Shown one piece after another: positions 1,655 to 35,012 of a stretch of 64,000 bases of DNA. Origin of the DNA: Micromonospora sp. WMMD1082 (GTDB lineage: Bacteria > Actinomycetota > Actinomycetes > Mycobacteriales > Micromonosporaceae); NCBI RefSeq assembly GCF_029626175.1, contig NZ_JARUBM010000002.1:558001-622000 (forward strand), given 5' to 3'. Each line of letters begins with the position of its first letter. Positions within the stretch are counted from its first letter, which is position 1. The position numbers and the translations under genes were made by a program. Under the pieces are notes generated by a model. The model did not search any database. It worked only from the letters and a program-made list of their open reading frames with translations, and was not told where the DNA came from.

Positions 1655-2569
1655 ATGAGTATCGAGGCGGCCGCTTGGGACACCGACCTGTCCGGCGTCG
1701 CCCGGACCGCCCGCTGGACCGCGGCAGCACGGGCGCGGGAGACGGCACGCCCAGACCGACTCTTCGACGACCCGTTCGCCACCCTGCTCGCGGGCACCGA
1801 CGGCGACGCCCTGCTGCGGCACTTCCACACCGAACGGGCCGCTCCCGATGGCAACCCGGTGCTGCCCATCCGCACCCGGTGGTTCGACGACTTCCTGCGC
1901 GGCAGCGTCACCCCCGGGTGCCAGGTGGTCGGTCTGGGCGCGGGACTGGACACCCGTGCGTACCGGCTGGACTGGCCGTCGGGGGTGGTGGTGTTCGAGG
2001 TGGACCAGGCCACCGTGCTGACGTACAAGCGGGAGCGGCTCTCCTGGGTCGCCAACGTGCCGCGGTGCGAGCGCCGGACCGTCGCGACCGACTTCACGGG
2101 TGGGTGGGGGCCGGCGCTGCTCGACGCGGGTTTCGACCCGACGGCGCGGACCGTGTGGTTCGCCGAGGGGCTGCTGTTCTACCTGCCGGCGCCGGTGGCC
2201 GCTGCGGTGGCCGCCCAGGCTTTCGGGCTCTCCGCTCCGGGCAGCCGGATCGCGGTGGATCTCATCGGTACGGGGATCTTCCGGCTGCGCTACATGCGTC
2301 GGTTCCTCGACAAGCTGGCCGACGCCGGCAGCCCGTGGCGATTCGGCACGGACACCCCGGCCGAGTTCCTTCGGCAGGCCGGCTGGGAGGTCGAGCAGGT
2401 CACCGAGCCCGGCGCGGCCGGGACCGACTACGGGCGCTGGCCGCAGGGCGCGCCACCGGTGGACTTCCCGAACCTCCCCCGCAGCTATCTCGTCACCGCC
2501 GGCCGGAGCGCCGGCGGTCCTGGCCCCACACCCGACGGCGCCGCTGCGGCGTCGGATGCCCATCGCTGA
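1655..2569 (+). CDS. class I SAM-dependent methyltransferase, Ppm1/LCMT-like (TIGR00027 type)
   Basis: 304 residues. The SAM motif I is VVGLGAGLDTRAYR at 91-104, followed by the acidic FEVDQ at 114-118 and a WFAEGLLFYLP block. This arrangement is typical of the leucine carboxyl methyltransferase-like actinobacterial O-methyltransferases. Such enzymes often methylate carboxylates or hydroxyls of polyketides and sugars. It heads a plus-strand unit running to the carrier protein at 7050 and is divergent from the kinase at 1515. ATG 1655 has only a weak GAGGG in front. The C-terminal 20 residues are Pro/Ala-rich and probably disordered. Confidence 0.85.
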   Translation: MSIEAAAWDTDLSGVARTARWTAAARARETARPDRLFDDPFATLLAGTDGDALLRHFHTERAAPDGNPVLPIRTRWFDDFLRGSVTPGCQVVGLGAGLDTRAYRLDWPSGVVVFEVDQATVLTYKRERLSWVANVPRCERRTVATDFTGGWGPALLDAGFDPTARTVWFAEGLLFYLPAPVAAAVAAQAFGLSAPGSRIAVDLIGTGIFRLRYMRRFLDKLADAGSPWRFGTDTPAEFLRQAGWEVEQVTEPGAAGTDYGRWPQGAPPVDFPNLPRSYLVTAGRSAGGPGPTPDGAAAASDAHR

Positions 2570-2586
2570 GACAGGAGTCGACCCCG

Positions 2587-3489
2587 ATGCCCGTTCAGTT
2601 CTCCGGAGAGACACATGGCTGTTTCTCGGACTCCCTTCAGATGGCCTTCGGCGACGAGGGCCCCGGCGAGACCGTGGTCGAGGTGCTGACCGGGTCGGCC
2701 TTCGGCATGTACCTGCACCACGACGGACGCCCGTTCTTCGCCCCGATCGGCTGGAACCCGGAGAAGGGCATCGAGAGCATGCTGGACCTGCTCGGGTGGA
2801 CGTGCGAGCGGACCGGCGGCTCCCTCGACGAGGTGGTCCGGGCGCTGGAGAAGGTGGACGACCAGCACCGGGCGGTGGCCGGCCCGGTGGAGATGGGACT
2901 GCTCCCGCACCACCCGGGGCTGGGTCAGCCCATCGGGGCCGATCACTATCTGGTGATCGTCGGCTTCGACGGGGAGAACGTGGTGATCCACGACCCGCGC
3001 GCTCACCCGTACACCGTGCTGCCGGTGCAGAAGCTGCTCGCCGCCTGGCGCACCGAGACGCTGTCCTACACCGTCCCGGACTTCAACCTGCGCACCGGTT
3101 TCCGGCGGGTACGCGAGGTCGACACCGCCGAGGCGGTGCGCCGGCTGCTGCCGATCGCCGCCGACATGGTCGTACCGGATGCCTCCGCGGAGGCATCCGA
3201 GGGCGCGGCGAAGGTGCTCGACGGCGGGCTGAGCACCTTCCTCTTCTTCCACCTGGCCGACTTCATGGTGTGCGTGGGCGCACGGCGGCGCAACGACGCG
3301 GCCGTGGTGCTCGCCCGGTACGGCTACACCCGGGTGGCGGAGGTGCTGGACCAGCAGGCCCGGCTGATCGGGTCGATGGAGTACCCGCTGGTGGCCGGGG
3401 ACTACGCCGCCGCTGCGGCGACGATGCGCAAGCTCACGCCCACGTTCGCCCAGTTGGAGACCGAGTTGCGGGCGGCGGTTCGGGCGTGA
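2587..3489 (+). CDS. BtrH_N-like / C39-like cysteine acyltransferase candidate
   Basis: 300 residues, no signal peptide. A papain-fold-like triad is visible: Cys12 in THGCFSDSL, His120 in GADHYLVIVGFD and Asp136 in VVIHDPRA. The order and spacing resemble the N-terminal domain of butirosin BtrH, which transfers an acyl group from a carrier protein onto an amine of the sugar scaffold. The C-terminal half is helical and unassigned. AGGAG at 2572 precedes ATG 2587, 17 bases after the methyltransferase stop. With three carrier proteins in the cluster, transfer of an ACP-bound aminoacyl chain is an attractive role, but this is inference; a C39-type peptidase or cyclophilin-like fold remains possible. 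Confidence 0.6.
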   Translation: MPVQFSGETHGCFSDSLQMAFGDEGPGETVVEVLTGSAFGMYLHHDGRPFFAPIGWNPEKGIESMLDLLGWTCERTGGSLDEVVRALEKVDDQHRAVAGPVEMGLLPHHPGLGQPIGADHYLVIVGFDGENVVIHDPRAHPYTVLPVQKLLAAWRTETLSYTVPDFNLRTGFRRVREVDTAEAVRRLLPIAADMVVPDASAEASEGAAKVLDGGLSTFLFFHLADFMVCVGARRRNDAAVVLARYGYTRVAEVLDQQARLIGSMEYPLVAGDYAAAAATMRKLTPTFAQLETELRAAVRA

Positions 3490-3561: not shown

Positions 3562-4365
3562 ATGCACGCCATCCTGCTCGTGGGGGGCCGGGGCACCCGC
3601 CTCATGCCACACACCAGCAACCGCCCCAAGGCGCTGATGCCGATGGGACGACACTCCCTGCTGGAGATCAGCCTGCGCCGGCTGCGGGCCTGCGGATTCA
3701 CCCGGGCGACGCTGTGCATCTCGCACCTGGGTTCGATGATCCGGTCCGCGATCGGCGACGGATCCCAGCTCGGTCTGCGGGTGGACTACTGCGTCGACGA
3801 ACGTCCGATGGGGACGGCCGCGCCGCTGCTGCTCGTGCCGGACTGGACCGGGCCCGCGGTGGTGATGAACGGCGACCTGCTGACGTCACTCGACTTCGGG
3901 AACCTGCATCGCCGACACGTGGCCAGCGGCGCCGGGTTGACCGTGGCGTACCAGCGGTACTGGATCTCCACCGGGGTCGGGCTGCTGCGCACCGACGGTG
4001 ACCGGATTCGACGGGTGCACGAGAAGCCGACCTTCGCGTGGAACGTCTGCTGCGGCATCTATGTGGCCGACCCGGACGTCCGGTCGTACATCCGTGCCGG
4101 CGAGCCTACCGACATGCCGGCCCTCATCAACGCGCTGACCGACGCCGGCAGGCCGGTCAACGGTCATGCCTTCGACGAGTCCTGGCACGACGTGGGCACG
4201 CCGGCCCGCTACGAGCAGGCGCGGGCCGACTTCCTGGCGGATCCGGACCGCTACCTGCGGTTGGTGCCCTCCGCGCCAACGGCGGGTCGGTCCCGCCCGG
4301 AACTCGACGTCGTCTTCCTCGACGAACCGGTGACGGGCGGCGCCACGATCGAGACGTGGACGTGA
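3562..4365 (+). CDS. sugar-1-phosphate nucleotidylyltransferase
   Basis: 267 residues of the NTP_transferase family. The nucleotide-binding signature GGRGTRL is at 8-14, the sugar-binding-loop lysine is K23 (RPKALMP), and the metal-binding NGD is at 103-105. It lacks the C-terminal beta-helix hexapeptide domain found in bifunctional GlmU-type or longer GMP-type enzymes. It should activate a sugar-1-phosphate with NTP to give an NDP-sugar for the glycosyltransferases nearby; base and sugar specificity are not evident. GGGAGG lies just upstream of ATG 3562. The stop TGA overlaps the GTG start of the glycosyltransferase downstream (GTGA). Confidence 0.85.
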   Translation: MHAILLVGGRGTRLMPHTSNRPKALMPMGRHSLLEISLRRLRACGFTRATLCISHLGSMIRSAIGDGSQLGLRVDYCVDERPMGTAAPLLLVPDWTGPAVVMNGDLLTSLDFGNLHRRHVASGAGLTVAYQRYWISTGVGLLRTDGDRIRRVHEKPTFAWNVCCGIYVADPDVRSYIRAGEPTDMPALINALTDAGRPVNGHAFDESWHDVGTPARYEQARADFLADPDRYLRLVPSAPTAGRSRPELDVVFLDEPVTGGATIETWT

Positions 4366-5459
4366 GCGGCGGCACCGGCGACGTCCTCGTGGTCTTCGCC
4401 GGCTACGGGCAAGCGCGGGCGGGGGCGGAGCGGATGGCGGTACGCGCGGCGGCGGGCCTGGCCGCACGATCGCGGCGGGTGACGGCGCTGGTGACCGACG
4501 CTCATCCGGACACCGTCGCCAGCCTGCGCTCCGCCGGTGTGCCGCTGTGCACCGACGCCGCTCAGCTGCTCCGGGCCCGCCCGGACTTCGCCCCGTCGGT
4601 GGTGCACGCCTTCGACCTGGCCCGCCCCGACGCGCCGGCCGAGGCGGTGCGACTGGCCCGTCGGTACCGCGCCCAACTGGTGCTGACCCCCTGCTCGGCA
4701 CCGGAGGTGTGGCCCGACCCGGTCCGGGCCGGCGAGGTCTGTCGGGCCGCCGACGTGGTCTTCGCCCTGACCGCCGCGGAGGAGACCGCGCTGGGCGACC
4801 TGGGTGTGCGGGACGCTCGGATCCGCCGCCTGCCGTCCGCGTCGGACCTCACCGGGCCGGTCGACACCGCCGGGTTCCGACGCCGCCACGGGATCGACGG
4901 GCCGTTCGTACTCTTCGTCGGGCGTCGGATGGCCAGCAAGGGGTACCGGACGCTGCTGGAGGCGATGGCCACGGTGTGGCGGCGGTTGCCCGCCAGCCGG
5001 TTCGTCTTCATCGGACCGGACGTCGATCCGGACGCGCCCGCCCACTTCGCCGCCCACGCCGATCCGCGCCTGCACGACCTGGGCACGGTCGACGAGCAGA
5101 CCAAACACGACGCGATCGCCGCCTGCGAACTGGTCTGCCTGCCCAGCGTCGCGGACGTGTTTCCGCTGGTCTTCGTCGAGGCCTGGACGTGCGGCCGGCC
5201 GGTGGTCAGCGGCGCGTTCGCCGGCGCGTACGAGGTGGTGCGGCAGGGCGTGGACGGACTTGTCGTCCCGCCCGGCCCGGCGCGCCTGGCCGCCGGGCTG
5301 ATCGAGCTGCTCGGCGACGACGTTCGACGGAGGCAACTCGGGGCGGCGGGGCGGCGGCGCGCCGAGCGGTCGTTCGGCTGGGATCGGGTCCTCGACGCCT
5401 ACGAATCGAGCTACGCGCCCGCGCCCAGCCCGGCCGCACCGACCGCGCTACCACGGTGA
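4362..5459 (+). CDS. GT4-type glycosyltransferase
   Basis: 365 residues with a two-domain GT-B architecture. The C-terminal half carries the group 1 glycosyltransferase features: a VLFVGRRMASKG strand-loop near residue 183, FIGPD, and the conserved FVEAWTCGRPVV segment with the EX7E-like glutamate that contacts the NDP-sugar. The GTG at 4362 was chosen because it overlaps the upstream stop codon (translational coupling); GTG 4356 is an alternative. It is probably a cytosolic retaining transferase using the sugar nucleotide made by the preceding gene. Acceptor unknown. Confidence 0.85.
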   Translation: MSGGTGDVLVVFAGYGQARAGAERMAVRAAAGLAARSRRVTALVTDAHPDTVASLRSAGVPLCTDAAQLLRARPDFAPSVVHAFDLARPDAPAEAVRLARRYRAQLVLTPCSAPEVWPDPVRAGEVCRAADVVFALTAAEETALGDLGVRDARIRRLPSASDLTGPVDTAGFRRRHGIDGPFVLFVGRRMASKGYRTLLEAMATVWRRLPASRFVFIGPDVDPDAPAHFAAHADPRLHDLGTVDEQTKHDAIAACELVCLPSVADVFPLVFVEAWTCGRPVVSGAFAGAYEVVRQGVDGLVVPPGPARLAAGLIELLGDDVRRRQLGAAGRRRAERSFGWDRVLDAYESSYAPAPSPAAPTALPR

Positions 5460-5487: not shown

Positions 5488-5585
5488 GAAAGGACGCACG
5501 GATGAGCGAGCGTGAGCGAGTGAATCATCGACACAGCGCGGTGGTGCCTCAGGGCGGCACGCAGCGAAGCGGAGTGGCGTCATGA
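5488..5585 (+). repeat. Micromonosporaceae-type short repeat containing a 27-codon ORF
   Basis: The gap between the glycosyltransferase and aminotransferase holds AAAGGA (5488-5493) followed by ATG 5502 and 27 codons (MSERERVNHR...). Its TGA overlaps the aminotransferase ATG. The first 30 bases of this ORF match the first 30 bases of the glycoside hydrolase gene at 11558 (minus strand) with one difference. That suggests a dispersed short repeat rather than a conserved peptide. It could still be translated and couple ribosomes into the aminotransferase. Confidence 0.5.
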
Positions 5586-6778
5586 GCGCACTGGCCGCCC
5601 CGCGTTGGCGGGTCACCCTGGCCGACAACACCGTCGACGAGCAGGAGATCGCCGCGGTCACCGAGGTCCTGCGCTCGCGCTGGCTCTCGGCCGGCGCACA
5701 GACCGCCGCCTTCGAGCGGGAGTTCGCCGACCGGCTCGGCGCCGACGACGCGGTCGCGGTCAGCAGTGGCACGGCCGCCCTGCACCTGGCGATGTTGGCC
5801 CTCGACCTGGGGCCGGGCGACGAGGTGATCATGCCGGCGCTGACGTTCGTGGCCTCCGCCGCGGTGGTGGCGCTGGCCGGCGCCACCCCGGTCCTCGCCG
5901 ACGTGCGCGCCCCGGACGACCTCACCGTGGACCCGGTGGACGTGGCGCGGCTGGTCACCCCGCGGACCCGGGCGGTCGTCGCGATGCACTACGCCGGCTA
6001 CCCGGCGGACCTGGCCGCGCTGCGTACGGTCAGCGACGGGCACGGCGCGGTCCTGGTCGAGGACGCCGCACACGCCCCCGTCGTCGAGCACGACGGGCGG
6101 ATGCTCGGCACGCATGGTGACATCGGCTGTTTCAGTTTCTTCGCCACCAAGAACGTCACCACCGGTGAGGGCGGGATGGTGCTCGCCCGCGATCAGGCGG
6201 TACGGGAACGGATCCGGCTGGCCCGCTCACACCACCTGACCACCTCCACCTGGGACCGGCTCAGCTCGGGCGACGCCAGCTACGACGTCGCCGGGATCGG
6301 GCTGAACTACCGGCCGACGGAGGTCTCCGCCGCGTTGGGGCGCGTCCAGTTGGGCCGGCTCGGACGGGACCGGCAGCGGCGCCGCGAACTGGTCGCCACG
6401 TACCGGGAGGTGCTCGCCGCGGCACCCGAGCTGGTGCTGCCGTTCGCCGGTCGGACCGGCGACTCCGCGCTGCACCTGATGCCGGTCGTGCTGCCCGACG
6501 GGACCGACCGGGGCGCGGTACGCGAGGGACTCGCCGCCGCCGGCGTACAGACCTCGGTGCACTATCCGCCGGTGCACCACCTGTCGGCCTACCGGGGCAG
6601 CGCGGGCGCGAGTCGTTCGGCACTGACCGTGACCGACGCGGTGGCACCGCGTCTGCTGTCCCTGCCGCTACACAGCCGGATGTCCGACGACGACGCCGTG
6701 CTGGCCGCCCGGGCGCTGCTGCGCTGTCTGCGGCCGGACCGCACCACCCCCTCATCGACTGGACGGAGCACATCATGA
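5582..6778 (+). CDS. DegT/DnrJ/EryC1-family PLP sugar aminotransferase
   Basis: 398 residues, fold type I. The PLP lysine is K190 in FFATKNVTTGEGG, the pyridine-contacting Asp161 is in VLVEDAAHA, and SSGTAAL at 61-67 binds the phosphate. Family members transaminate NDP-keto-sugars. With the UDP-sugar dehydrogenase and epimerase at 12555-11555 it could install the amino group of an amino-sugar or amino-pentose. ATG 5582 overlaps the stop of a short repeat-derived ORF, and its own stop overlaps the carrier-protein start at 6775. Confidence 0.9.
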   Translation: MSALAAPRWRVTLADNTVDEQEIAAVTEVLRSRWLSAGAQTAAFEREFADRLGADDAVAVSSGTAALHLAMLALDLGPGDEVIMPALTFVASAAVVALAGATPVLADVRAPDDLTVDPVDVARLVTPRTRAVVAMHYAGYPADLAALRTVSDGHGAVLVEDAAHAPVVEHDGRMLGTHGDIGCFSFFATKNVTTGEGGMVLARDQAVRERIRLARSHHLTTSTWDRLSSGDASYDVAGIGLNYRPTEVSAALGRVQLGRLGRDRQRRRELVATYREVLAAAPELVLPFAGRTGDSALHLMPVVLPDGTDRGAVREGLAAAGVQTSVHYPPVHHLSAYRGSAGASRSALTVTDAVAPRLLSLPLHSRMSDDDAVLAARALLRCLRPDRTTPSSTGRSTS

Positions 6779-7050
6779 TCTCCCCACCAACCGCCGCCAC
6801 GGTCGGGGCGACCATCATCCGACTGCTGACCGAGATGACCGGTATCGACCCGGCGTCGCTGACCGACGACACCAGGATCTTCATGGAACTCGGCCTGACG
6901 TCGGCCAGGATCCTCGAACTGTTGATGCGGTTGGAGGAGGAACTCGGCCAGCCGATGGTCGATCGGGTGGACTGGTTGCGCATGGAGACCATCGCCGACC
7001 TGGCCGGGTTCGTCGCCGGACGACAGGGCGGCGCCGCATCCCGATCCTGA
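6775..7050 (+). CDS. free-standing acyl carrier protein 1
   Basis: 91 residues, acidic four-helix carrier. The phosphopantetheine attachment site is Ser43 in MELGLTSARILELL. This is a variant of the usual GxDS motif with Thr before Ser, but hydrophobic spacing is conserved. It is translationally coupled to the aminotransferase by a 4-base overlap and ends the plus-strand unit before a strong hairpin. One of three discrete carrier proteins in the cluster; it is expected to be modified by the PPTase at 17215. Confidence 0.85.
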   Translation: MISPPTAATVGATIIRLLTEMTGIDPASLTDDTRIFMELGLTSARILELLMRLEEELGQPMVDRVDWLRMETIADLAGFVAGRQGGAASRS

Positions 7051-7055
7051 GTTGG

Positions 7056-7099: not shown

Positions 7100-7555
7100 T
7101 CACGCGTAGTTGTGCACCAGCACCTGCGCGACGCAGACCGGCACCCGTCGCCGTTCCACCTCGTAGGTCAGGCTCAGGACCAGCTGAACGCCGCCCCGGA
7201 GCGGCCGGACCTCCCGCAGCCGGACACCCGCCCGGATCCGGGAACCGACCAGCACGGGCGACAGGAAGCGGACCCGGTCGCAGCCGTAGTTCACCTTCAG
7301 GCGTACGCCCTCGGCGACGAGCACCTGCTCCAGCACCCGCGAGGTCAGGGCGAGGATGAGGAAGCCGTGGACGACCGTGCCGCCGAACGGGCCGTCGGCC
7401 GCCCGCTTCGGATCGACGTGGATCCACTGGTAGTCGCCGATCGCCTCGGCGAAGCTGTCCACCTGCTCCTGATCGATCGACATCCACTCACTGAAGCCGA
7501 GGTGGCGCCCCACCAGGGCACGCAGGGGTTCGACCTCGGTACCGACAACGATCAT
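7100..7555 (-). CDS. MaoC-like (R)-specific hydratase/dehydratase
   Basis: 151 residues, single hot-dog fold. The hydratase 2 motif AIGDYQWIHVDP places the catalytic Asp41 and His46. GTVVHGFLILAL matches the following conserved helix. Enzymes of this family hydrate or dehydrate enoyl/3-hydroxyacyl thioesters on CoA or carrier proteins. It is the last gene of the long minus-strand operon that starts with the carrier protein at 15685. Together with the acyl-CoA dehydrogenase at 17961 it could process a carrier-bound chain. Confidence 0.85.
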   Translation of the reverse strand: MIVVGTEVEPLRALVGRHLGFSEWMSIDQEQVDSFAEAIGDYQWIHVDPKRAADGPFGGTVVHGFLILALTSRVLEQVLVAEGVRLKVNYGCDRVRFLSPVLVGSRIRAGVRLREVRPLRGGVQLVLSLTYEVERRRVPVCVAQVLVHNYA

Positions 7556-7605: not shown

Positions 7606-8550
7606 TCACTGGACGAGGAAGTAGGCCGGCCCCAGCCGCTCCGGCGCCGATGCGCCGGCGGTCGCGCCCAGGTGGCGCAGGAACGGGACGTCCAGTCCCA
7701 CGTCCACCCGCCAGTACGCGCCAGCGGGGCTACGGTGCGCGGGCCAGTCGTCGTCGAGCAGTCCCCACCCGACCAGGGTGCGGAGGAAGAACGGGTCGGC
7801 CGGCCACCAGCGGCCCTCGGCGTCACGCAGCTCCAGCCAGTGATGCCGGTTGGCGAAGGGGCGCGACAGGCACAGTCCGGTGGCCGCCCGGACCGGCGTA
7901 CCGAGTTCGCCGCCCCGGGACACCAGGTGACGCACCGCGAGGGTGCAGTCGGCCAGGCCGGTCTCCCGCAGGAATCCGAGGTCGGTGGTGAGTCCCGGCG
8001 GCAGCAGGTGGAACCGTAGCCCCGCCGCCTCGTCGACCAGACGCCGCTGCTCGGGGGTGAGCGCCGTCGGTGCGGCGGCCGGTTCGAGCTGGATGTCCAC
8101 CTCGAAGCGGGACGCCTCGGGTCGCCGGGCCGCCACGACCTGCGGCGCGGACGTCACCGCCGGGTCGAGGACGAAGGTGCAGCCGGCGCAGCGGTCCCGC
8201 GCCGGGCAGTACGCCCGCACGATCACCGTACGCCGCGCGGCCGTTTCGGCCCCGCCGACGCGGAGGGCCGCCGCCATCGCCTCGTACGTCGACCGCTGCG
8301 GTGACCGCACGTCCAGCGCAAGCGCCGCGTTGCGCAGGTCGTAGCGGTCGAACAGCAGGCCCTCGGCGTTCGAGGAGTGCGGGAGCCCCAGCTCGACCAG
8401 TTGCTCCAGGCAGGCCCGGGACAGCCGGTGGAACCGGGTCGCGTGCTCCAGCGACGTGTCGAAGGACCGGTGGCCGTCGGGCACCAGGCTGACCTGCCGC
8501 ACCAGGGCCTCGATCGTCGTCGACCCGGTGGCCGGCGTGGGCGTGGACAT
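7606..8550 (-). CDS. transglutaminase-fold protein with an extra cysteine cluster
   Basis: 314 residues, unrecognised at subfamily level. A transglutaminase/protease-like triad can be seen: Cys202 in GLADCTLAV, His236/237 in NRHHWLELRD and Asp252 in WPADPF. The N-terminal half has a CPARDRCAGC motif (Cys115, 121, 124) that could bind a metal. Transglutaminase homologues in pathways such as andrimid (AdmF) form amide bonds between carrier-bound substrates, so a similar role is possible here; this is inference. ATG 8550 lies 8 bases after the methyltransferase stop. Confidence 0.6.
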   Translation of the reverse strand: MSTPTPATGSTTIEALVRQVSLVPDGHRSFDTSLEHATRFHRLSRACLEQLVELGLPHSSNAEGLLFDRYDLRNAALALDVRSPQRSTYEAMAAALRVGGAETAARRTVIVRAYCPARDRCAGCTFVLDPAVTSAPQVVAARRPEASRFEVDIQLEPAAAPTALTPEQRRLVDEAAGLRFHLLPPGLTTDLGFLRETGLADCTLAVRHLVSRGGELGTPVRAATGLCLSRPFANRHHWLELRDAEGRWWPADPFFLRTLVGWGLLDDDWPAHRSPAGAYWRVDVGLDVPFLRHLGATAGASAPERLGPAYFLVQ

Positions 8551-8557
8551 CGACGTC

Positions 8558-9598: not shown

Positions 9599-9647
9599 GC
9601 TGCTCTCCAATCGATGGGCATCGCCGATCGGCGACGGCGGACGCGGG

Positions 9648-15387: not shown

Positions 15388-15685
15388 GACGCTGCCCTCC
15401 GCCGACCGGACCCGGCACCGTCGCGTGGGCGGCGCAGACTGCCGCCAACCCGTCCGGGGTCGCGTCCTCGAAGATGGTCTCCAGAAGGGTGGATCGCAGC
15501 GCCTCGGCGGCCTCCGGCCCGGTGGGTCGACAGATGTCGACGAGCCGTTGCAGCACGTCGACGGCGCGGACCGAGTCGCCGCCGCAGTCGAAGAAGTCCT
15601 CGTTGGGGGCGAGCGGGCCGCGCAGCAGCGCCTCGCCCATAAGCTCACCAATCGTGGCGCTGACGTCGGATTGTCCGTTGCGCAT
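15383..15685 (-). CDS. free-standing acyl/peptidyl carrier protein 2
   Basis: About 100 residues. The phosphopantetheine site is Ser38 in FFDCGGDSVRAVDVL, which is of the PCP-like GGDS type rather than the DSL type. It is immediately upstream of and overlapping the ligase, its probable loading partner. ATG 15685 was chosen; a GTG at 15748 would add 21 unconserved residues. It is the first gene of the minus operon that runs to 7100 and is divergent from the decarboxylase at 15937. Confidence 0.85.
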   Translation of the reverse strand: MRNGQSDVSATIGELMGEALLRGPLAPNEDFFDCGGDSVRAVDVLQRLVDICRPTGPEAAEALRSTLLETIFEDATPDGLAAVCAAHATVPGPVGGGQRH

Positions 15686-23490: not shown

Positions 23491-23691
23491 CTGACCCCCT
23501 TCCGCCGATGTCGGCCCGTCCGACGTTCGGCGACCCCGGGCCGGGACGGCGGCTCCGGGCCGGGGCCGCCGTGCGTCACTGACCCTCCCGTGCACCGGGT
23601 GCACCGGAAAGCCGCCGACGGGCGCACCAAGCCCCTGACCGGACGAGCATGCCCGCAAGCGGGGGTTCTGGGCCCTGTGATCGACGCGAAG

Positions 23692-23728
23692 ACTGGCCTG
23701 GTCCGTTGTCCGGACGGACCAGGCCAGT
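23692..23728. promoter_or_regulatory. perfect 15-base inverted repeat in a divergent promoter region
   Basis: Arms ACTGGCCTGGTCCGT and its exact complement are separated by 7 bases. The right arm abuts the GGGGAGAG ribosome binding site of the aldehyde dehydrogenase (ATG 23742). The gap 23491-23741 also holds the promoter of the minus operon. An operator or an RNA hairpin masking the RBS is possible. Confidence 0.6.
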
Positions 23729-23741
23729 GGGGAGAGTGCTC

Positions 23742-27144: not shown

Positions 27145-28503
27145 TCAACCGGCCGACGGCACGGCGGCGGCGATCGGCCGGCGGGCCCGGCCACCGCCGC
27201 CGACCGCGGCGGTCAGCTCCCGGGCGGCGTCCTCGACGACCCGTTGCGCCTGCGCCACGTCGGCGCCCGGGGCCATCAGGGAGAGCACCGGCTGCCGGAA
27301 GTCCAGCCCGCGGACCGACGTCGGATAGATCCGCACCCCGTCGGCCCAGAGCCGGGCGAGCACGGGTCGCACGTCGTCGAGGTAGGACAGCGGCCCGCGG
27401 GCGCCGAGCGTGACCCCGTCGTGCGAGAAGACCACCTGGTCGGCGGAGCCCCAGCGGTGCAGCATGGCGATCGCCGCCATGGCACCGCTGCGCCGGGCGT
27501 TGATCTCGGTCACGTGGTAGGCGCCGTCGTCGGCGAGGACGAAGTCCACGCACATCCAGCCACGGAAGCCCCGGGCGTGCGCGGCGACCCCGATGCCGCG
27601 GCCGATCCGGGTCATCCGTTCCGCCTCGGCCGGGGGCACCGAGGCGGTTCCGACGTGTACGCCCCGGACCCGGGAGACGTCCACCGCCATCGCGGTGGGC
27701 ACGATCTCCCGCACTCCGTCATCGTCGACCCGCAGGTCCACCGCCGGGCAGCCGACTCCCGGCCGGTGCGCCACGAACTGCTGCACGAGCAGTGGGAAGG
27801 TCCGCAGGAAGGGATCCCGCTCCACGGCGGTCCACAGCGCCCCGATGCCCCGGGCGTCGTGGTGCAGCACCACCGAGCCGTCCCCACCGACGCCGTACGG
27901 GCTGCGCACGATGACCCGCTCGTGCCGGGTCAACAGGTGCTCGACCGCGCCCCGCAACTCGGTGTTGTCGACCACCAACAGGCCGGGCGGCACGCGTACC
28001 CCGGGCACCTCGCGGGCCAGGTCGAGGCAGCTCAGCTTCGAATCCAGGTATCGGCTGACCCAGTAGTCCCGCTCCGGCACCCCGTCGAGGCGTACCGCCA
28101 GGCCCCAACCGCGCAGGGTCGCCGCGAGCAGGAAGACCTCCGGAGTCGCCCCCCAGGTGACCAGCCGGACCTCGTCGTGGCCGGTCAACAGGGCACGGAG
28201 CCGGGCCAGTGCCGCGCCGTCGCCCAGCAGGTCCCTCGCCACCATCCCGCTGACCGGGGCCGGCGAGACGACCGGCGGCGCCGGCTCGTCCAGCAGTCGG
28301 TGCACGTCGGCGTACCAGTGCGGGTCGTGGCCCGCGGGCAGCACCAGCACCCGCGGCCGGCTGCTCCAGTAGGCCGCGTAGTCGCCGAGGTGCCCGGCCA
28401 GGCGGGTGACGACGTCGGTGACGGCCGGCCCCAGGGAGACGGCCGGGTTGCGGGTGTTGAACTCGCCCACGTTGGGCACGACGACGTCGATCGGCTCTGT
28501 CAT
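27145..28503 (-). CDS. ATP-grasp ligase 2
   Basis: 452 residues. The ATP-binding loop is VIVRSPYGVGGDGSVVLH (about 200-217) and the metal strand is YHVTEINARRSGAM (about 338-351). It is only distantly like the first ATP-grasp protein (21148). It probably forms an amide between a carboxylate and an amine; small-molecule substrates are unknown. ATG 28503; it follows the amidase gene by 14 bases. Confidence 0.75.
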   Translation of the reverse strand: MTEPIDVVVPNVGEFNTRNPAVSLGPAVTDVVTRLAGHLGDYAAYWSSRPRVLVLPAGHDPHWYADVHRLLDEPAPPVVSPAPVSGMVARDLLGDGAALARLRALLTGHDEVRLVTWGATPEVFLLAATLRGWGLAVRLDGVPERDYWVSRYLDSKLSCLDLAREVPGVRVPPGLLVVDNTELRGAVEHLLTRHERVIVRSPYGVGGDGSVVLHHDARGIGALWTAVERDPFLRTFPLLVQQFVAHRPGVGCPAVDLRVDDDGVREIVPTAMAVDVSRVRGVHVGTASVPPAEAERMTRIGRGIGVAAHARGFRGWMCVDFVLADDGAYHVTEINARRSGAMAAIAMLHRWGSADQVVFSHDGVTLGARGPLSYLDDVRPVLARLWADGVRIYPTSVRGLDFRQPVLSLMAPGADVAQAQRVVEDAARELTAAVGGGGRARRPIAAAVPSAG

Positions 28504-28517
28504 GCGGACCTTCCCGG

Positions 28518-30011
28518 TCAGGGCTGCCCTGCCGGCAGCTCGTCGGTGGCCGCCACGGTCAGCTCGGGGTGGCCGATGGGTGGCAGGACCCCGGCGAGCT
28601 GGCGGGCCACCGCCAGCGTCGTCCGGTCCTGGAGATAGTCACCGGCCACCGCGATGCCGATCGGCAGGCCCCGCGAGTCGGTGCGGACCGGCACCACCGT
28701 GGACGGCAGGTAGCTGACCCCGGTCAGGCCCGCCCAGACGATCTGGTCCCAGTACGGGCGCTGCACCCCGTCGACGGTGACGGTGCGGTCCCGGAACGGC
28801 CGGTGGTCGTGCCGGGCGGCCAGGTTCGGCGCCACCGGCAGCAGGATCGCGTCGTAGCCGGCGAAGAACTGCCGCCACCGGGTCCGCAGCCGGTTCCGCT
28901 GGTCGTCGGCCTCCACCCAGTCGCGGTAGCGCTGGGCGACGTACTCGCCGCCCAGGACCGCGCGGGGCGGACGCCGTCCGGCGGCGATCTCGTCGATGTC
29001 GTCGGCGGTGTGTTCGGGCATCGCCACCGACGCCAACAGCCGCCGGAAGACGCCGTCGCTGGCGGCGAGCCGCACCCCGGAGGGGCGGGCCTCCTCGACG
29101 AGGACACCGCTGTCGGCGAGCCGGTCCGCGGCGTCGCGCAGCGCGGCCCGGACCTCGACGTCGACCGGGCAGTACGGGTCGTCGAACCACGTCGCCACGC
29201 GGCGCACCGGGCGCGGCGGCGGCAGTGACAACCGCCAGGCCGGCGCGTCCCAGGGGTGCGCCACGGCGATCGCCGCCAGAGCGGTCTCCAGATCCGCCAC
29301 GGTGCGGGCGATCGGGCCGACCACGGCGATGTCCGCCTCGCGGGGCTTGAACGGGTAGGGCGGCACGTGACCGACCATCGGCACCGCGCGGTAGCTGGGT
29401 TTGTGGCCGAACACGCCGCAGGCGCCGGCCGGCAACCGGATCGAGCCGGCCACGTCGGAGCCGAGTTCGAGCGGGGTGAAACCGGCGGCGACGGCACCGG
29501 CCGCGCCGCCGGAGGACCCGCTGGTGGTGTAGTCCGGGTGCCACGGATTGCGGGCCACGCCGAACAGCTCGTTGTAGGACTGTAGGTCGCCCGAGCCCGA
29601 CGGCACGTTGGTCTTGCCGAACACGACCACCCCGGCGCCGCGCAGCGCGGCCACCGCCGTGGCGTCCTCCCGGGGCTGATACGTCCGCAGCTCGGTCAGG
29701 CCGCCGGTGGTACGCAGGCCAGCGGTGGCGAGACAGTCCTTGATCGTCATGGCCACGCCGTGCAGCGGCCCCCGGCGGTCGCCCCGGACAGTCGCCTCGT
29801 CGGCCTGCCGGGCGTACTCACGCGCCCGCTCGTCGAGGGTGACGACCAGCCCCAGCCCGGCGTTGAGCTGCTCGATCCGGGCGAGCTGGGTGTCGAGATA
29901 CTCCCGGGCCGAGATTCGACGGGCGGCGATCGCGTCGGCCACCTGCCGTGCCGACCACCAGCACGGATCCGGGCCGGCCTGTCCAGGATCGGGCACCGTA
30001 CGCCACCTCAT
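28518..30011 (-). CDS. amidase signature family hydrolase
   Basis: 497 residues. The Ser-cisSer-Lys triad can be placed: Lys91 in MTIKDCLATAG, Ser166 in TSGSSGGAAG and Ser190 in SDVAGSIRLPA. These enzymes hydrolyse amides or transfer the acyl group. In an antibiotic pathway this could remove a protecting aminoacyl group or an amide, as in some arginine-derived starter routes. It could also be a resistance function. Start at ATG 30011. Confidence 0.88.
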   Translation of the reverse strand: MRWRTVPDPGQAGPDPCWWSARQVADAIAARRISAREYLDTQLARIEQLNAGLGLVVTLDERAREYARQADEATVRGDRRGPLHGVAMTIKDCLATAGLRTTGGLTELRTYQPREDATAVAALRGAGVVVFGKTNVPSGSGDLQSYNELFGVARNPWHPDYTTSGSSGGAAGAVAAGFTPLELGSDVAGSIRLPAGACGVFGHKPSYRAVPMVGHVPPYPFKPREADIAVVGPIARTVADLETALAAIAVAHPWDAPAWRLSLPPPRPVRRVATWFDDPYCPVDVEVRAALRDAADRLADSGVLVEEARPSGVRLAASDGVFRRLLASVAMPEHTADDIDEIAAGRRPPRAVLGGEYVAQRYRDWVEADDQRNRLRTRWRQFFAGYDAILLPVAPNLAARHDHRPFRDRTVTVDGVQRPYWDQIVWAGLTGVSYLPSTVVPVRTDSRGLPIGIAVAGDYLQDRTTLAVARQLAGVLPPIGHPELTVAATDELPAGQP

Positions 30012-30344: not shown

Positions 30345-31397
30345 ATGCGGGCGGTCGTCTATCACGGCCCGGGGTCGGTACGCGTCGACGAGGTGGAGCT
30401 GCCCCGGATCCAGCATCCGCGTGACGTGATCGTGCGGGTCACCCGTACCGCCGTGTGCGGTACCGACCTGCACCCGTACCGGGGAGAGCTGCCGGGATTC
30501 GCGCCCGGCACGGTGCTGGGGCACGAGTTCGCCGGCACCGTCCACGAGGCGGGGTCGCAGGCCCCGTTCGCCGTCGGCACCAGGGTCTTCGCCTCCGACG
30601 TGGTCGCCTGCGGGCGCTGCGCGGCGTGCGCACGCGGCTGGCACTACCAGTGCCCTTCGGTGACCCTCTTCGGGTACGCCGACGTGGTGGGGGCGCCGCT
30701 GCCCGGTGGGCAGGCCGAGTTCGTCCGGGTGCCCTTCGCCGACGTGGTGCTCGCCGCCACCCCGGACGACGTCACCGACGAGCAGGCACTCTTCGCCGGC
30801 GACGTACTGACGACCGGGCTGGCCGCGGTGCACGGGGCGCGGGTGACTCCCGGTGCCCTGGTCGCGGTGGTCGGCGCGGGCCCGCTCGGTCTGCTCGCCG
30901 GGCTCTGCGCGGTGACGGCCGGCGCCGCGCGGGTGGTGATCGCCGACCCGACGCCGGCACGGCGGGAGCGGGCGGCCGGCTTCGGGTTCACCGCTGTCAC
31001 CCCGGAACAGCTCGACGAGGCGGTACGCGACGACGGTGGCCGCGGCGCGGACGCGGTCGTCGAGGCGGTGGGCAGCGACGCGGCGCTGGCCTGCGCGCTA
31101 CGGGCAGCCGCCGCACACGCCACGGTCTGCGCGGTGGGCGCACACCATTCCACCGCGATGCCCTTCCCCACCGGGCTCGCGTTCGCCCGCGAGTTGACCG
31201 TGCGGTTCGCCGTCGGTGACCCGATCCGGATGCGCGAACCGGTGCTGGCGCTGATCCGGTCCGGCCGGCTGGATCCGAGCCGGATCGTCACGCACCGGCT
31301 GCCGCTGGGCGAGGCCGGTGCGGCGTATCGACTCTTCGACCGGCAGGACGCGTTCAAGGTCGTGCTCAGCGCCGACGGCGCCACCCCGGCGTTCTGA
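30345..31397 (+). CDS. zinc-dependent alcohol dehydrogenase (MDR)
   Basis: 350 residues. Catalytic zinc ligands are Cys38 (VCGTD) and His60-Glu61 (GHE). The structural zinc loop has Cys89, 92, 95 and 103. The NAD site is VVGAGPLGLLAG. It interconverts an alcohol and aldehyde/ketone. The aldehyde dehydrogenase at 23742 could be its partner. ATG 30345 has GGGAG at optimal distance; ATG 30291 would add 18 residues. Confidence 0.9.
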   Translation: MRAVVYHGPGSVRVDEVELPRIQHPRDVIVRVTRTAVCGTDLHPYRGELPGFAPGTVLGHEFAGTVHEAGSQAPFAVGTRVFASDVVACGRCAACARGWHYQCPSVTLFGYADVVGAPLPGGQAEFVRVPFADVVLAATPDDVTDEQALFAGDVLTTGLAAVHGARVTPGALVAVVGAGPLGLLAGLCAVTAGAARVVIADPTPARRERAAGFGFTAVTPEQLDEAVRDDGGRGADAVVEAVGSDAALACALRAAAAHATVCAVGAHHSTAMPFPTGLAFARELTVRFAVGDPIRMREPVLALIRSGRLDPSRIVTHRLPLGEAGAAYRLFDRQDAFKVVLSADGATPAF

Positions 31398-31489: not shown

Positions 31490-31507
31490 ACGCCGGCCGG
31501 CCCGCCC

Positions 31508-32353
31508 TCAGGCGGCCAGCGGGATGGGGGCGACCTCACGCTCGGCGAGGAAGTCCGGGCGTGGACTCGCCACCGGCCGGGGCGCGTTGCGGACGCCGTT
31601 GTAGACCATCAACAGCATGCCCCGGTCGAACGGCGACAGGTTGGGCGACGAGGCGTGCAGCACGTTCGGGTGGAACATCAGCACGGAGCCGGCCGGCCCC
31701 TTGGGACTGACCAGCCCGCCCTCCTCGGCCAGCCGACGGATGACGGCCCGGTCTACCTGGAACTTCTCGGTGGCGGTGAGCGTCGCCATCCAGTTCGGCC
31801 CGTCCTCGTAGCCGGCCGGCATGCCGTCGGTGTCCGTGCCGGCGAGCAGCCCGTGCCGGTGCGAGCCGGGGATGAACGTCAGCGGACCGTTGAACTCGTT
31901 GACCTCGTTCAGGAACACCGTGACGTTGACCAGGTCCGGCCGCGCAATCCCGTCCCGGTCCCGCCAGTTGATGTAGTCCTGGTGCCACTCCCACTGGTCG
32001 CCCGCGAAGGCGGCCTTGAGGTTGACCTTCGACTGGTGCACGTACACCTCGTCGTCGAGCAGTTGCCGGGCCGCGCCGGCAAGCTCCGCCGACCGGCTGG
32101 CCCGGGCCACCACCGGATCGGTGCGGTGCGGTCCGTACACCGATCGCACGGTCACCCCGTCGCGCTCCAGCACCCGCTGCGGCCCCTCCTGGGCCAGGAT
32201 CCGCGGGGCGGCCTCGACCAGTTCAGCCAGTAGGTCGGCGGGCAGGTGGTCCCCGGGCAGCAGCAGGAACCCGTTGCGGTGGTAGTCCGCCACCATTCCG
32301 GCGGTCAGCGGCGCGGGCCCTGCGGTGGTCCGCGCAGCATCGATCCCGGCCAT
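31508..32353 (-). CDS. phytanoyl-CoA dioxygenase/EctD-like Fe(II)/2-oxoglutarate oxygenase
   Basis: 281 residues. The iron facial triad is His124 and Asp126 (WEWHQDYINW) with a distal His near 233 (HPNVLHASSPN), followed by an Arg for 2-oxoglutarate. FNGPLTFIPGSHRHG is typical of the family. It probably hydroxylates a free or carrier-bound amino acid or similar small substrate. AAGGGA precedes ATG 32353. It stands alone and convergent to the dehydrogenase. Confidence 0.85.
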   Translation of the reverse strand: MAGIDAARTTAGPAPLTAGMVADYHRNGFLLLPGDHLPADLLAELVEAAPRILAQEGPQRVLERDGVTVRSVYGPHRTDPVVARASRSAELAGAARQLLDDEVYVHQSKVNLKAAFAGDQWEWHQDYINWRDRDGIARPDLVNVTVFLNEVNEFNGPLTFIPGSHRHGLLAGTDTDGMPAGYEDGPNWMATLTATEKFQVDRAVIRRLAEEGGLVSPKGPAGSVLMFHPNVLHASSPNLSPFDRGMLLMVYNGVRNAPRPVASPRPDFLAEREVAPIPLAA

Positions 32354-32637
32354 CTGCGCTCCCTTCTCGTGTGCGAACAGGACCCCGCCGGTGTCCGGCG
32401 GTGGTCCGGCGGTCGGGGCCAGCGCCACAGCGTGACGGACCCCGGTATCCCCGCTAGTCAACCTCGGCCGCCGCGCCCGGGTCTGCTCCTCATTGCGACC
32501 TGGTCAGCTGGGCAGGTCGACCGCGCGCGCCTCCTGCGCTTCCGTCGGGTGGCTCACCCACCGAAGGTGGAAACGTGACGCATCAGGGCCTGCTGGTCCG
32601 CCGATGCCTGAACGATCTCGTCCGGAGAGTGAGTCAG

Positions 32638-33714
32638 ATGAGCAGGATCGAATCCGATGCCGGCAACCTCGAAGAGGTCACCCTGACCCACGACGAGGCC
32701 GTGCTGATGCGCGGCCTGTGCGCCGAGGCCGTCAACGCCCTCGGCGACGCAGACCTGAGCACCCAGGCGGCGATGACCACCGTGGAGCTGATCGGTTGCC
32801 GGCTGCCCGAGCGCCTGGTGGCGGCCCTGGTGTCCTTCCGGTGCACCAGCAGTTCGTCGGGTGCTCTGCTGGTGCGCAACGTGCCGGTCGACGAACGGCT
32901 ACCCGCCACACCCACCGACGGCTACCTGGCCGACTGGCGCTCGGTCGGCATCGCCACGGCCGCCCAGCTGATGGTCATGTCCCACCTGGGCGACATCATC
33001 GGGTACACCGACGAGAAGCACGGTCGGGTCGTCCAGGACGTCGCCCCGATCGCCGGCGCCGAGCGCCAGCAGGAGAACAGCGGCTCCGCCTACCTGGAGT
33101 TGCACACCGAGAACGGGTTCCACCCGTACAAGCCGGATTTCCTGAGCCTGCTCTGCCTACGCCCCGACCACGATCGCAGCGGGCACACGTTGACCGGCAC
33201 GGTGCAGCGGGTGCAGCCGCGGCTGTCCGAATCCGGTGTGGCGACCCTGCGCCGGCCGCTGTTCCGGATCCGGTTCAGCAGCTCGTTCGTCCAGCACGGA
33301 TCCAGCGGGTACTCCGAGCCGGTGGCGGTGCTGTCCGGCCCGGTGGACGATCCGGAACTGACCGCGGACTTCCACGCCATGGAGCCGATGACGGACGAGG
33401 CGCGCCAGGCCCTCGACGAGTTGGAGGCCGTGCTCACCCCGTCGCTGGCCTCGGTCGTGCTGGACACCGGGAGTCTGCTGGTGGTCGACAACTGGCGCGC
33501 CGTGCACGGACGTACCAGCTTCACCGCCCGCCACGACGGCACCGACCGGTGGTTGCGCCGGTGCTTCGCGGTGGCCGACCTGCGGCGCTCTCGTGGGGTC
33601 CGGCCGCCCGGCTCACGGGTGCTCGCGCCGCTGACCACGATCCTGGCCGACCGGCCGACCGCGCCGGCGTCGACGCCGCTGGCCGGTGTCACCCGCTCGG
33701 TCTCCGCACGATGA
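32638..33714 (+). CDS. VioC/AsnO-type amino-acid side-chain oxygenase (clavaminate synthase-like)
   Basis: 358 residues. The HxE iron motif is LELHTENGFHPYKPDF (His156, Glu158) and the third ligand is His290 in DNWRAVHGRTSF. Arg304 likely binds 2-oxoglutarate. Relatives beta-hydroxylate arginine, asparagine and similar amino acids. In the segment where VioC holds two Asp residues for the guanidinium (DGDF) this protein reads TADF, by eye alignment, so arginine itself is uncertain. ATG 32638 has GGAGAG upstream; a GTG at 32575 would add 21 residues. Confidence 0.85.
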   Translation: MSRIESDAGNLEEVTLTHDEAVLMRGLCAEAVNALGDADLSTQAAMTTVELIGCRLPERLVAALVSFRCTSSSSGALLVRNVPVDERLPATPTDGYLADWRSVGIATAAQLMVMSHLGDIIGYTDEKHGRVVQDVAPIAGAERQQENSGSAYLELHTENGFHPYKPDFLSLLCLRPDHDRSGHTLTGTVQRVQPRLSESGVATLRRPLFRIRFSSSFVQHGSSGYSEPVAVLSGPVDDPELTADFHAMEPMTDEARQALDELEAVLTPSLASVVLDTGSLLVVDNWRAVHGRTSFTARHDGTDRWLRRCFAVADLRRSRGVRPPGSRVLAPLTTILADRPTAPASTPLAGVTRSVSAR

Positions 33715-33725
33715 AGGGGCACCCG

Positions 33726-35012
33726 ATGCGCCGTTTCATCACCACGCTGGACGAGTTGATCGCCCGGCCGCCCCGGCACCTGGTGCTGTTGTACTCGGGC
33801 GGTCTGGATGGCACCTACCTGCTCCATCTGCTCAAGGACGCGCCGGTCAGTATCACCGCGCTGAACGTCCGCATCGGGGCGCCGGACGACGGCCAGGCCC
33901 GGGATCTGGCCGCCCGGTTCGGCGCGTCGTACCAGGAAGCCGACGTGACCGAGGAGTTCTTCACCGAGGCGGTGCCCGCCGCGATCCACGCCGACGCCTA
34001 CTACCAGGGACAGTTCCCGGTCGGGTCCACCCTGAGCCGACCGTTGATGGCTCGGGCGGCGGTCCGGGTGGCCCGGGACGTCGGCGGCGACGCCATCGGG
34101 CACACCGCGACGTACATGCAGAACAGCACGGCCCGGCTGGGTCGCTCGGTCGTCGCGTTGGCACCGACGCTGCACGTCGTCGCGCCGTTCCTGGGCTCCA
34201 ACGTGACCCGGGCGCAGAAGCAGGCCCGGCTGGCGGAGGTCGGCGTCGTGCTGCCCGACGCGGTGCACAGCGTCGACGTGAACCCGTGGGCGCGGGTGAT
34301 CGAGAACGGCAGCCTGGAGACCCCGGAGAACCGCCTGGACGAGTCGGTCTTCACCCTCACCCGGCACCCGGTCGACTGCCCCGCCGAACCGGCCGAGCTG
34401 AGCCTGACCTTCGCGGCGGGGCTGCCGGTTGCCCTGGACGGCACCACGCTGCCCCTGCGCGACCTGGTGACCGGGCTCAACGAGCTGGCCGGCCGGCACG
34501 GCGTGGGCCGCTACGCCGGGCTGGAGGACACCGCGTTCGGGGTGAAGAACCACGAGGTCCGGGAGTCTCCGGCGGCAGCGGTCATCACGACCGCCCACCG
34601 TGCGCTGGCCAACGCCGTCCTCGACCCGCGCGAACACACCGTACGGACGCTGCTCTCCACCGAGTGGACCACCACGGCGGTGCAGGGCGGCTGGTTCAGC
34701 CACCTCGGGCGTACGCTCCGGCGGTGCCTGGCCGAGCTGGACGAGCCGTTGACCGGCACCGTCGAGCTGCGGCTGTACCGGGGTGCGGTGACGGTACTGC
34801 GGCTGGTCACGCCGCACGGGCTGCACTACGCCCGGCTCGGCGTCGACTTCCACGACTGGATGGACGACTACGGGTACGCCTCCTGGCACCACCTGATGAC
34901 CCTCGCCGACACCGTCCGCACCCGGTCGACGGCGACGCACCGCCTCGGAGGAGACGTCGATGAACGCAGCGGCACCGCAGCGGACGCCTTCGACGGCATG
35001 GCCGACCGCTGA
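33726..35012 (+). CDS. argininosuccinate synthase-like ATP-PPi ligase (divergent)
   Basis: 428 residues, colinear with ArgG: PP-loop LYSGGLDGT (22-30), YQGQFPVGSTLSRPLMA, VNPWARVIENG and the C-terminal NELAGRHGVGRY block. Where canonical ArgG has TGKGNDQVRFE for citrulline/aspartate, it reads HTATYMQNSTARL (126-138). It may thus join an amine to a ureido or carboxylate group of a secondary metabolite rather than make arginine. AAGGGG precedes ATG 33726; ATG 33711 would overlap the upstream stop (ATGA). Confidence 0.82.
   Translation: MRRFITTLDELIARPPRHLVLLYSGGLDGTYLLHLLKDAPVSITALNVRIGAPDDGQARDLAARFGASYQEADVTEEFFTEAVPAAIHADAYYQGQFPVGSTLSRPLMARAAVRVARDVGGDAIGHTATYMQNSTARLGRSVVALAPTLHVVAPFLGSNVTRAQKQARLAEVGVVLPDAVHSVDVNPWARVIENGSLETPENRLDESVFTLTRHPVDCPAEPAELSLTFAAGLPVALDGTTLPLRDLVTGLNELAGRHGVGRYAGLEDTAFGVKNHEVRESPAAAVITTAHRALANAVLDPREHTVRTLLSTEWTTTAVQGGWFSHLGRTLRRCLAELDEPLTGTVELRLYRGAVTVLRLVTPHGLHYARLGVDFHDWMDDYGYASWHHLMTLADTVRTRSTATHRLGGDVDERSGTAADAFDGMADR

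Follow-up and report, generated by a model that had tools for sequence, protein, structure and literature searches.

A dehydro-beta-alanine-type gene cassette beside amino-sugar genes in Micromonospora sp. WMMD1082: a candidate pathway without nonribosomal peptide synthetases

The window analyzed here, a 64,000 bp stretch of the 7.44-Mb genome of Micromonospora sp. WMMD1082 (contig NZ_JARUBM010000002.1, C2:558001-622000), contains a gene cluster in which three free carrier proteins, two preATP-grasp ligases, an ANL ligase, a BtrK-type pyridoxal phosphate (PLP) decarboxylase (PLPdc), and paired proteins of the ketoacyl synthase III (KASIII) and acyl-CoA dehydrogenase (ACAD) types lie among amino-sugar genes. 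Genes were called by codon-position G+C, and 40 open reading frames (ORFs) between 1 and 45 kb were scanned with Pfam and NCBIfam. A first-pass annotation described the locus as built around three carriers and free of polyketide synthases (PKSs) and nonribosomal peptide synthetases (NRPSs), and its gene list is right: each part it named is present in the scans and alignments with the checked key residues kept, all three carriers match PP-binding and conserve the serine, and no modular ketosynthase or condensation/adenylation megasynthase is present in the 40 ORFs. Its view of the core as an enlarged butirosin chain builder does not survive comparison, as many other clusters contain the KASIII and ACAD pairs, carrier, and decarboxylase as a conserved unit, which matches the bolagladin system. 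A dehydro-beta-alanine (Dba) cassette accounts for the core better; its parts would be a predicted loader, a carrier, a decarboxylase, a KASIII pair for N-acylation, and an ACAD pair.

The nearest solved structure to the decarboxylase is BtrK (295 bits, compared with 180 for the best diaminopimelate decarboxylase), and its PLP lysine is kept in 17 of 17 homologues. The catalytic KASIII-like protein (KAS3) has C115, H236, and H268 invariant in 20 of 20 sequences. Its partner (KASl) has no Pfam match up to E 0.01, and its profile (A4) finds the KASIII-like acyltransferase ChlB3 (E 7e-5); the idea that KASl is a chain-length factor with Gln in place of Cys was rejected, because the profile alignment sets a Leu, not the DQG Gln, opposite Cys115 of KAS3. 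The ACAD catalytic Glu is kept in 11 of 11 sequences, and in none of nine for the short partner (ACADl). The attachment Ser is retained in all best-match carriers (15 rows for carrier A, of which the distant ones are possibly not orthologues, 12 for B, and 21 for C). The locus therefore has the parts of a Dba cassette: a BtrK/VinO-type decarboxylase, a free carrier with its Ser, KASIII-type proteins with the Cys-His-His set, and an ACAD with its Glu. Assignment of the carriers to primary metabolism was rejected, as the genome has 43 PP-binding matches, one of them in a separate open frame of 84 aa at C2:4547884.

Scanning named genomes with an alignment of KASIII sequences yielded 79 KAS3 loci, taken from the best 80 of 181 confirmed stretches with up to 10 kb viewed on each side. 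Matches below 45 bits were dropped from this tally (below 40 in a tally of longer stretches), overlapping matches were counted once, and we set the thresholds of the cassette and loader counts ourselves. The decarboxylase is present in 44 of these loci, ATP-grasp in 39, KASl in 70, ACAD in 38, and ACADl in 33, the last never without ACAD (0 of 79). All seven core genes occur in 25 loci, 20 of which have them on one strand in the order KAS3-ATP-grasp-PLPdc-carrier-KASl-ACADl-ACAD; in three others the PLPdc gene is relocated and on the opposite strand, as in the window, and in two KAS3 is relocated. The same order is seen in all nine Streptomyces loci, which we chose, mostly as the best-scoring, from 18 places in 392 genomes. 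Decarboxylase and ACAD genes co-occur (33 of 44 loci with the decarboxylase versus 5 of 35 without; Fisher p 7.5e-8, for loci that are not phylogenetically independent). The full-set counts and the common order indicate that the cassette is a unit and not a chance grouping. Counting KAS3 alone and not the whole cassette, relatives at E <= 1e-20 are present in 84 of 354 genomes of the window's family. Relatives of the ligase (33%), decarboxylase (39%), ACAD (34%), and KASIII protein (28%) lie together in a Burkholderia record, so the link reaches Gram-negatives. A Rahnella plasmid (L153) carries three KASIII-like matches, a relative of the VinN-like ligase (35% to that of L113, described below), two ACADs, a P450, and a luciferase-like monooxygenase.

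The KAS3/KASl pair could instead form a carbon-carbon bond on an aminoacyl starter, in a type II PKS-like or beta-keto step as for cispentacin, with the MaoC-type hydratase and the ACAD processing the chain. The KASIII family membership, the MaoC and ACAD genes, and a weak match of carrier C to the cispentacin AmcB model are in line with this, but the match is 27.9 bits against a cut-off of 80 for AmcB-type acyl carrier proteins (ACPs), the cassette lacks a ketoreductase, and MaoC is matched in 3 of the 79 loci within the stretches examined. Moreover, KAS3 carries a His at a position occupied by Asn in the one FabH compared, and a bolagladin KASIII protein is proposed to act in N-acylation in the excerpted text of PMC7756342. 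We consider carbon-carbon bond formation improbable and favor N-acylation by the pair.

Two types of ligase may load the amino acid onto the cassette carrier. PF18604 (E <= 0.001) has only two matches in the whole genome, preATP-grasp ligases 1 and 2. Among the 44 decarboxylase loci, 36 have ATP-grasp only, three a VinN-like ligase only, none both, and five neither in view, a swap which suggests that both types load the amino acid. For the ligase at L113, VinN is the top PDB match (397 bits). The window ANL ligase is of another kind: malonyl-CoA synthetases are its best PDB matches, with oxalate-CoA ligases among the next, and a role as VinN-like amino-acid loader was rejected, VinN being absent from the 33 PDB matches at E <= 1e-20. 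It should therefore supply a second acyl group, and in our reading its product would be the acyl donor for the KAS pair.

The cassette also lies beside megasynthase genes. L113 and L110 combine it with an NRPS-type ORF, a condensation-type protein, and a diaminopropionate-synthase-type protein, and L133 has fragments of this NRPS-type set (assigned by motif and by eye); at all three no ATP-grasp is seen and the VinN-like ligase is present. From their gene content we infer that these look like autucedine/enamidonin-type clusters, as enamidonins would need such NRPS-type and diaminopropionate-synthase-type ORFs. An NRPS is likewise adjacent at L152, and on a Streptomyces decoyicus plasmid it accompanies the ATP-grasp form. 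Two further Streptomyces loci (L174 and L175) have a PKS-type ORF of 2062-2066 aa (by eye), two KAS3 genes, KASl, PLPdc, a carrier, and a VinN-like ligase, with no ACAD match in 20 kb, such that the KAS pair accompanies the decarboxylase there without an ACAD. A Streptomyces search with the VinN-like ligase returned at its top mostly loci with a ligase and a more distant decarboxylase (L169-L173), which we guess to be macrolactam-type starter genes; it did not find the autucedine cluster.

Table 1. Predicted genes of the cluster in the window, with positions counted from its first base
Feature	Coordinates	Strand	Basis or remark
APH-family kinase, possible self-resistance	712..1434	-	Pfam APH E 1.1e-21
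LCM-type S-adenosylmethionine methyltransferase	1655..2569	+	Pfam LCM E 1.9e-48
BtrH-like Cys/His/Asp acyltransferase candidate	2587..3489	+	C12, H120, D136; start corrected to ATG 2587; homologues carry PF27157
Sugar-1-phosphate nucleotidyltransferase	3562..4365	+	Pfam NTP_transferase
GT4 glycosyltransferase	4356..5459	+	Pfam
DegT-type sugar aminotransferase, PseC/ArnB-like	5582..6778	+	Pfam E 3.8e-106; NCBIfam best PseC, below cut-off
Carrier A	6775..7050	+	Pfam PP-binding E 2.5e-9
MaoC-type hydratase	7100..7555	-	Pfam E 7.9e-24
Transglutaminase-like amide-bond former candidate	7606..8604	-	Transglut_core E 0.0056, below cut-off
O-methyltransferase (OMT)	8558..9610	-	Pfam
GH42-like glycoside hydrolase	9648..11501	-	Pfam; travels with sugar genes
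Short-chain dehydrogenase/reductase (SDR), nucleotide-sugar epimerase/decarboxylase type	11555..12562	-	Pfam Epimerase
UDP-glucose dehydrogenase type (UGDH)	12555..13898	-	TIGR03026 over cut-off
ANL ligase, proposed loader of second acyl group	13900..15390	-	Best PDB malonyl-CoA synthetase
Carrier B, adjoins ANL gene	15383..15748	-	PP-binding E 5e-5; start uncertain
BtrK-type PLP decarboxylase (PLPdc), type III	15877..17229	+	Best PDB BtrK
Phosphopantetheinyl transferase (PPTase)	17215..17964	-	Pfam ACPS
ACAD-type desaturase (ACAD)	17961..19160	-	Pfam
Short ACAD-like partner (ACADl) without catalytic Glu	19175..19861	-	Alignment
Degenerate KASIII-like partner (KASl)	19858..20736	-	Profile match to ChlB3
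Carrier C, core of cassette	20736..21026	-	PP-binding E 2.1e-9
preATP-grasp ligase 1, proposed amino-acid loader	21148..22533	-	PF18604
KASIII-like acyltransferase (KAS3), Cys-His-His	22555..23490	-	Pfam
Aldehyde dehydrogenase	23649..25148	+	Pfam
PhoX phosphatase, Tat-like signal	25174..27093	+	Pfam E 6.6e-161; ATG 25174 and twin Arg by eye
preATP-grasp ligase 2	27145..28521	-	PreAtp-grasp just at cut-off, 27.5 bits
Amidase-signature enzyme	28518..30011	-	Pfam E 6.6e-85
Zinc alcohol/sugar dehydrogenase (ADH)	30345..31397	+	Pfam, NCBIfam
PhyH dioxygenase, ectoine-hydroxylase-like	31508..32461	-	TIGR02408 E 9e-49, below cut-off; metal residues kept in 4/4 homologues
VioC/GntD/clavaminate-synthase-like dioxygenase (TauD)	32575..33714	+	NCBIfam below cut-offs; HxE..H kept in 4/4 homologues
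ArgG-related ligase	33711..35012	+	NF038212 265.6 bits, cut-off 425
LuxR regulator	35430..36095	+	Pfam GerE
Glyoxalase-like protein, three GT2 genes, ABC pair; probably in cluster	36220..44552		Scans and synteny

The 30 genes of 1655-35012 are conserved as a group, and the nearest proteins and loci come from Micromonospora. All 30 are syntenic in M. gifhornensis and M. radicis, 29 in a Solwaraspora-like genome (which lacks the OMT), and 27 in Micromonospora sp. KC723, where PhyH, TauD, and the ArgG-like gene are missing from this position and LuxR directly follows the ADH; this synteny of 27-30 genes in four other genomes argues that the grouping did not arise by chance. Actinoplanes cyaneus has 28 of the 30 across two contigs, without the OMT and with no PhoX seen in the stretches examined. 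The A. cyaneus cluster (L044-L045, L155-L156) is split over these contigs, and GT2 fragments are present at both ends of the 26-kb contig. Sugar, BtrH-like, and transglutaminase-like genes are present in all five other window-type clusters.

The GH42-like gene is in view with other sugar genes (from the UGDH, SDR, DegT, ADH, GT4, and NTP-transferase set) at 7 of the 79 loci, and longer stretches add sugar-type clusters in Micromonospora sp. ATCC 39149, G155, A. cyaneus, and the four close relatives. The ATCC 39149 GH42-like gene (L047; G241:C4:6737321-6739089) lies in two reading frames. A Dba-type acyl-peptide cassette might have come by chance to lie next to the sugar cluster of an unrelated pathway, as the wide occurrence of the cassette without sugar genes would allow; however, the two gene sets are interleaved and stay syntenic in the four relatives, and much of the sugar set recurs with KAS3 in the ATCC 39149, G155, Dactylosporangium, A. 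italicus, and Amycolatopsis loci. Chance juxtaposition is thus very unlikely. The position of the cassette beside UDP-sugar, aminotransferase, glycosyltransferase, BtrH-like, and transglutaminase-like genes points instead to an N-acyl dehydro-aminoacyl group that would be placed on an amino sugar.

The BtrH-like and transglutaminase-like proteins are candidates for this transfer. Across 38 aligned BtrH-like sequences, His120 and Asp136 are invariant and Cys12 is present in 90% or more. The window protein itself has no BtrH_N match and found no match in a PDB sequence search; another PDB search gave HopQ fusions at best (E 0.041), which we took as chance, and the papain-like AvrRpt2 at E 0.19. 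Its weak C39 likeness is in line with the closeness of BtrH_N to C39 and C70 in the excerpted text of PMC10318531. The transglutaminase-like protein keeps its Cys, first His, and Asp in seven of seven homologues, with no PDB sequence match up to E 1.

BtrI, BtrJ, BtrK, and BtrH build the butirosin side chain, and the butirosin logic proposed in the first-pass annotation is half right: carrier-bound decarboxylation, a Cys/His/Asp transferase candidate, and a sugar scaffold are retained, and the core builder is not. A strict butirosin scheme would have ATP-grasp load Glu, the BtrK-type enzyme generate gamma-aminobutyryl (GABA)-carrier, ATP-grasp 2 add a protecting gamma-Glu, the dioxygenases hydroxylate, and the BtrH-like protein transfer the chain to the sugar, leaving KAS and ACAD for a separate acyl group. 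The BtrK best match, the two ATP-grasp ligases, the BtrH-like protein, and the hydroxylases suit this scheme, but the decarboxylase belongs to one cassette with the KAS and ACAD pairs in many loci, only A. cyaneus among the 79 loci showed a BtrH match within the stretch examined, and the 40 ORFs have no Pfam match for a BtrO monooxygenase, a BtrG cyclotransferase, or 2-deoxy-scyllo-inosose (DOI) synthase/2-deoxystreptamine genes. We regard the strict scheme as rather unlikely and retain the Dba cassette for the core.

Three of the four close relatives, and one contig of A. cyaneus, have the carrier A, BtrH-like, PhyH, TauD, and ArgG-like genes together. This joint occurrence suggests an optional second acyl unit. 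The ArgG-related protein has an ATP motif, SGGLDGT, and reads YMQNS (by eye) in place of GKGND, which we take to be the usual ArgG stretch, and its amino donor may therefore be something other than aspartate. The cluster includes both an APH-family kinase gene and one for a PhoX phosphatase with a Tat signal. The combination is reminiscent of streptomycin-like self-protection, in which the product is phosphorylated inside the cell and activated outside.

The cluster seems to be wider than the 1655-35012 segment first delimited. The APH-family kinase gene has a copy 55-92% identical in all five other window-type clusters, and GT2 genes with ABC-transporter pairs flank both sides of the cluster (window 39986-44552 and L186:6617-14449; mutual identity 49-60%), the second ABC pair and two GT2 genes lying within a stretch of about 7 kb on the left. 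These conserved flanking genes argue for an extent of about 1-44.5 kb plus about 7 kb leftward. A pentapeptide-repeat protein is encoded at 44722-45276, just past the ABC pair, and an Rfam scan found two tRNAs only.

We propose, with about an even chance of being correct, that the cluster encodes a modular pathway, free of NRPSs, that makes an acylated amino-sugar antibiotic; each of its reactions is deduced from gene content. The PPTase would activate the three carriers, and ATP-grasp 1 would attach an acidic amino acid (Asp favored, Glu possible) to carrier C through its side-chain carboxyl, so that the BtrK-type enzyme could strip the free alpha-carboxyl and leave beta-alanyl (or GABA). The ANL ligase would load another acid onto carrier B, from which KAS3/KASl would transfer the acyl group to the amine, forming an amide and not a carbon-carbon bond. 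ACAD with its short partner would desaturate the N-acyl-aminoacyl thioester to an enamide of the dehydro-beta-alanine type. UGDH, SDR, ADH, and DegT would build the amino sugar and GT4 attach it, and the BtrH-like protein, the transglutaminase-like protein, or both would shift the carrier-bound acyl group to the sugar amine. Carrier A together with ATP-grasp 2 might add a further amino-acid unit, with tailoring by the dioxygenases and the ArgG-like protein. The APH would phosphorylate the product inside and the exported PhoX dephosphorylate it outside, which may protect the producer. A more specific and more tentative version, which we hold to be possible but doubtful, is that several unrelated folds (ATP-grasp, a heteromeric KASIII/Cys-less KASIII pair, transglutaminase-like, and BtrH-like) form the amide bonds between discrete carriers and sugar to give glycosylated N-acyl dehydro-aminoacyl (enamide) antibiotics, with condensing enzyme and dehydrogenase each a pair of a catalytic and a dead partner.

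Several observations weigh against this proposal. The loader's substrate is deduced from the ligase swap, of which the VinN-like form contributes three loci only, and five of the decarboxylase loci show neither loader within the stretches examined. The likeness of KASl to KASIII is weak (hhalign to KAS3 E 0.0049, probability 7%, beside the ChlB3 match), and the PLPdc gene is set apart from the operon in the window. Within the stretches examined, 11 of the 44 decarboxylase loci show no ACAD and nine no KASl, and KASl is matched at every one of the 35 loci where no decarboxylase is in view. The KAS pair is thus not bound exclusively to the decarboxylase, and it may have other amine acceptors in those loci. 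Many KAS3 and KASl loci with no decarboxylase in view (e.g. L134 and L114) have ANL or NRPS-like adenylation matches. As to transfer, the transglutaminase-like call is below the Pfam threshold, the BtrH-like protein matches C39 sub-threshold, and BtrH_N is found in one of six homologues (E 0.005, below cut-off). In a search of nine further KAS3-cluster genomes, eight of them sugar-type, five lack a BtrH-like gene at E <= 1e-20, and two have one on another contig only (one KAS3 contig being shorter than 9 kb); in two Amycolatopsis sugar-type clusters KAS3 and this gene share a contig, 14-16 kb apart. A linked BtrH-like gene is thus missing from most of the other sugar-type clusters checked, and the transfer step may differ there.

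If the proposal is true, Actinobacteria use the rare Dba module as a portable unit, which ATP-grasp as well as ANL ligases can load and which serves, beyond lipopeptides, to decorate sugars. It offers a hypothesis for NRPS-free amide formation that is testable protein by protein, and the paired catalytic and dead KASIII and ACAD subunits pose a directly testable question of enzymology. The occurrence of KAS3 beside KASl provides a genome-mining handle for enamide natural products.

No paper describing the gene combination, and no known cluster that matches it, was found in the open-access PMC literature; individual parts resemble several characterized systems. CloN2 is a KASIII-type acyltransferase, and the ChlB3/CloN2 type moves acyl groups onto carriers, whereas the window KAS3 has a Cys-less partner and is linked to amine acylation. 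AdmF of andrimid is a transglutaminase-like protein forming an amide from carrier to carrier, and the transglutaminase-like protein of the window may be similar to it. Solanimycin was rejected as a comparison, its residues being dehydro-alpha-alanine in the excerpted account. The window shares with butirosin (PMC2922099 and PMC10318531, excerpts) a BtrK-type decarboxylase predicted to act on a carrier, ATP-grasp, a BtrH-like candidate, and a probable amino-sugar acceptor, and differs in adding the KAS and ACAD pairs. In the autucedine/olenamidonin route a 3-oxoacyl-ACP synthase is the proposed enzyme for joining acyl chains to Dba-ACP (PMC11204786, excerpts), and the Streptomyces autucedine, enamidonin, and olenamidonin clusters are similar in their Dba unit and its proposed KASIII-type acylation; the compounds described in those excerpts have a lipid acyl group, are NRPS products, and contain no sugar, unlike the window with its sugar genes. 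The closest likeness is to the bolagladin module of Burkholderia gladioli, in which BolN (BtrK-like), a free ACP, a VinN-like ligase, two KASIII homologues, and the ACAD BolQ generate N-acyl-dehydro-beta-alanine; deletion of bolN abolished the product and deletion of bolQ gave beta-alanine congeners, and loading and N-acylation, the latter by one of the KASIII proteins, are proposals there (PMC7756342, excerpts). The window matches it in the free carrier, decarboxylase, two KASIII-like proteins, ACAD, and predicted order of chemistry. In bolagladin, however, a VinN-like ANL ligase loads and an NRPS is fed, whereas the window has an ATP-grasp ligase and sugar genes in place of the NRPS, and the bolagladin KASIII proteins have Ser or Thr where KAS3 keeps Cys. 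The cluster is thus predicted to work like a Dba module and resembles butirosin in part. The Dba module itself is already known, and the autucedine work may already describe part of the cassette; what appears new here is a Dba-type cassette joined to sugar genes without an NRPS.

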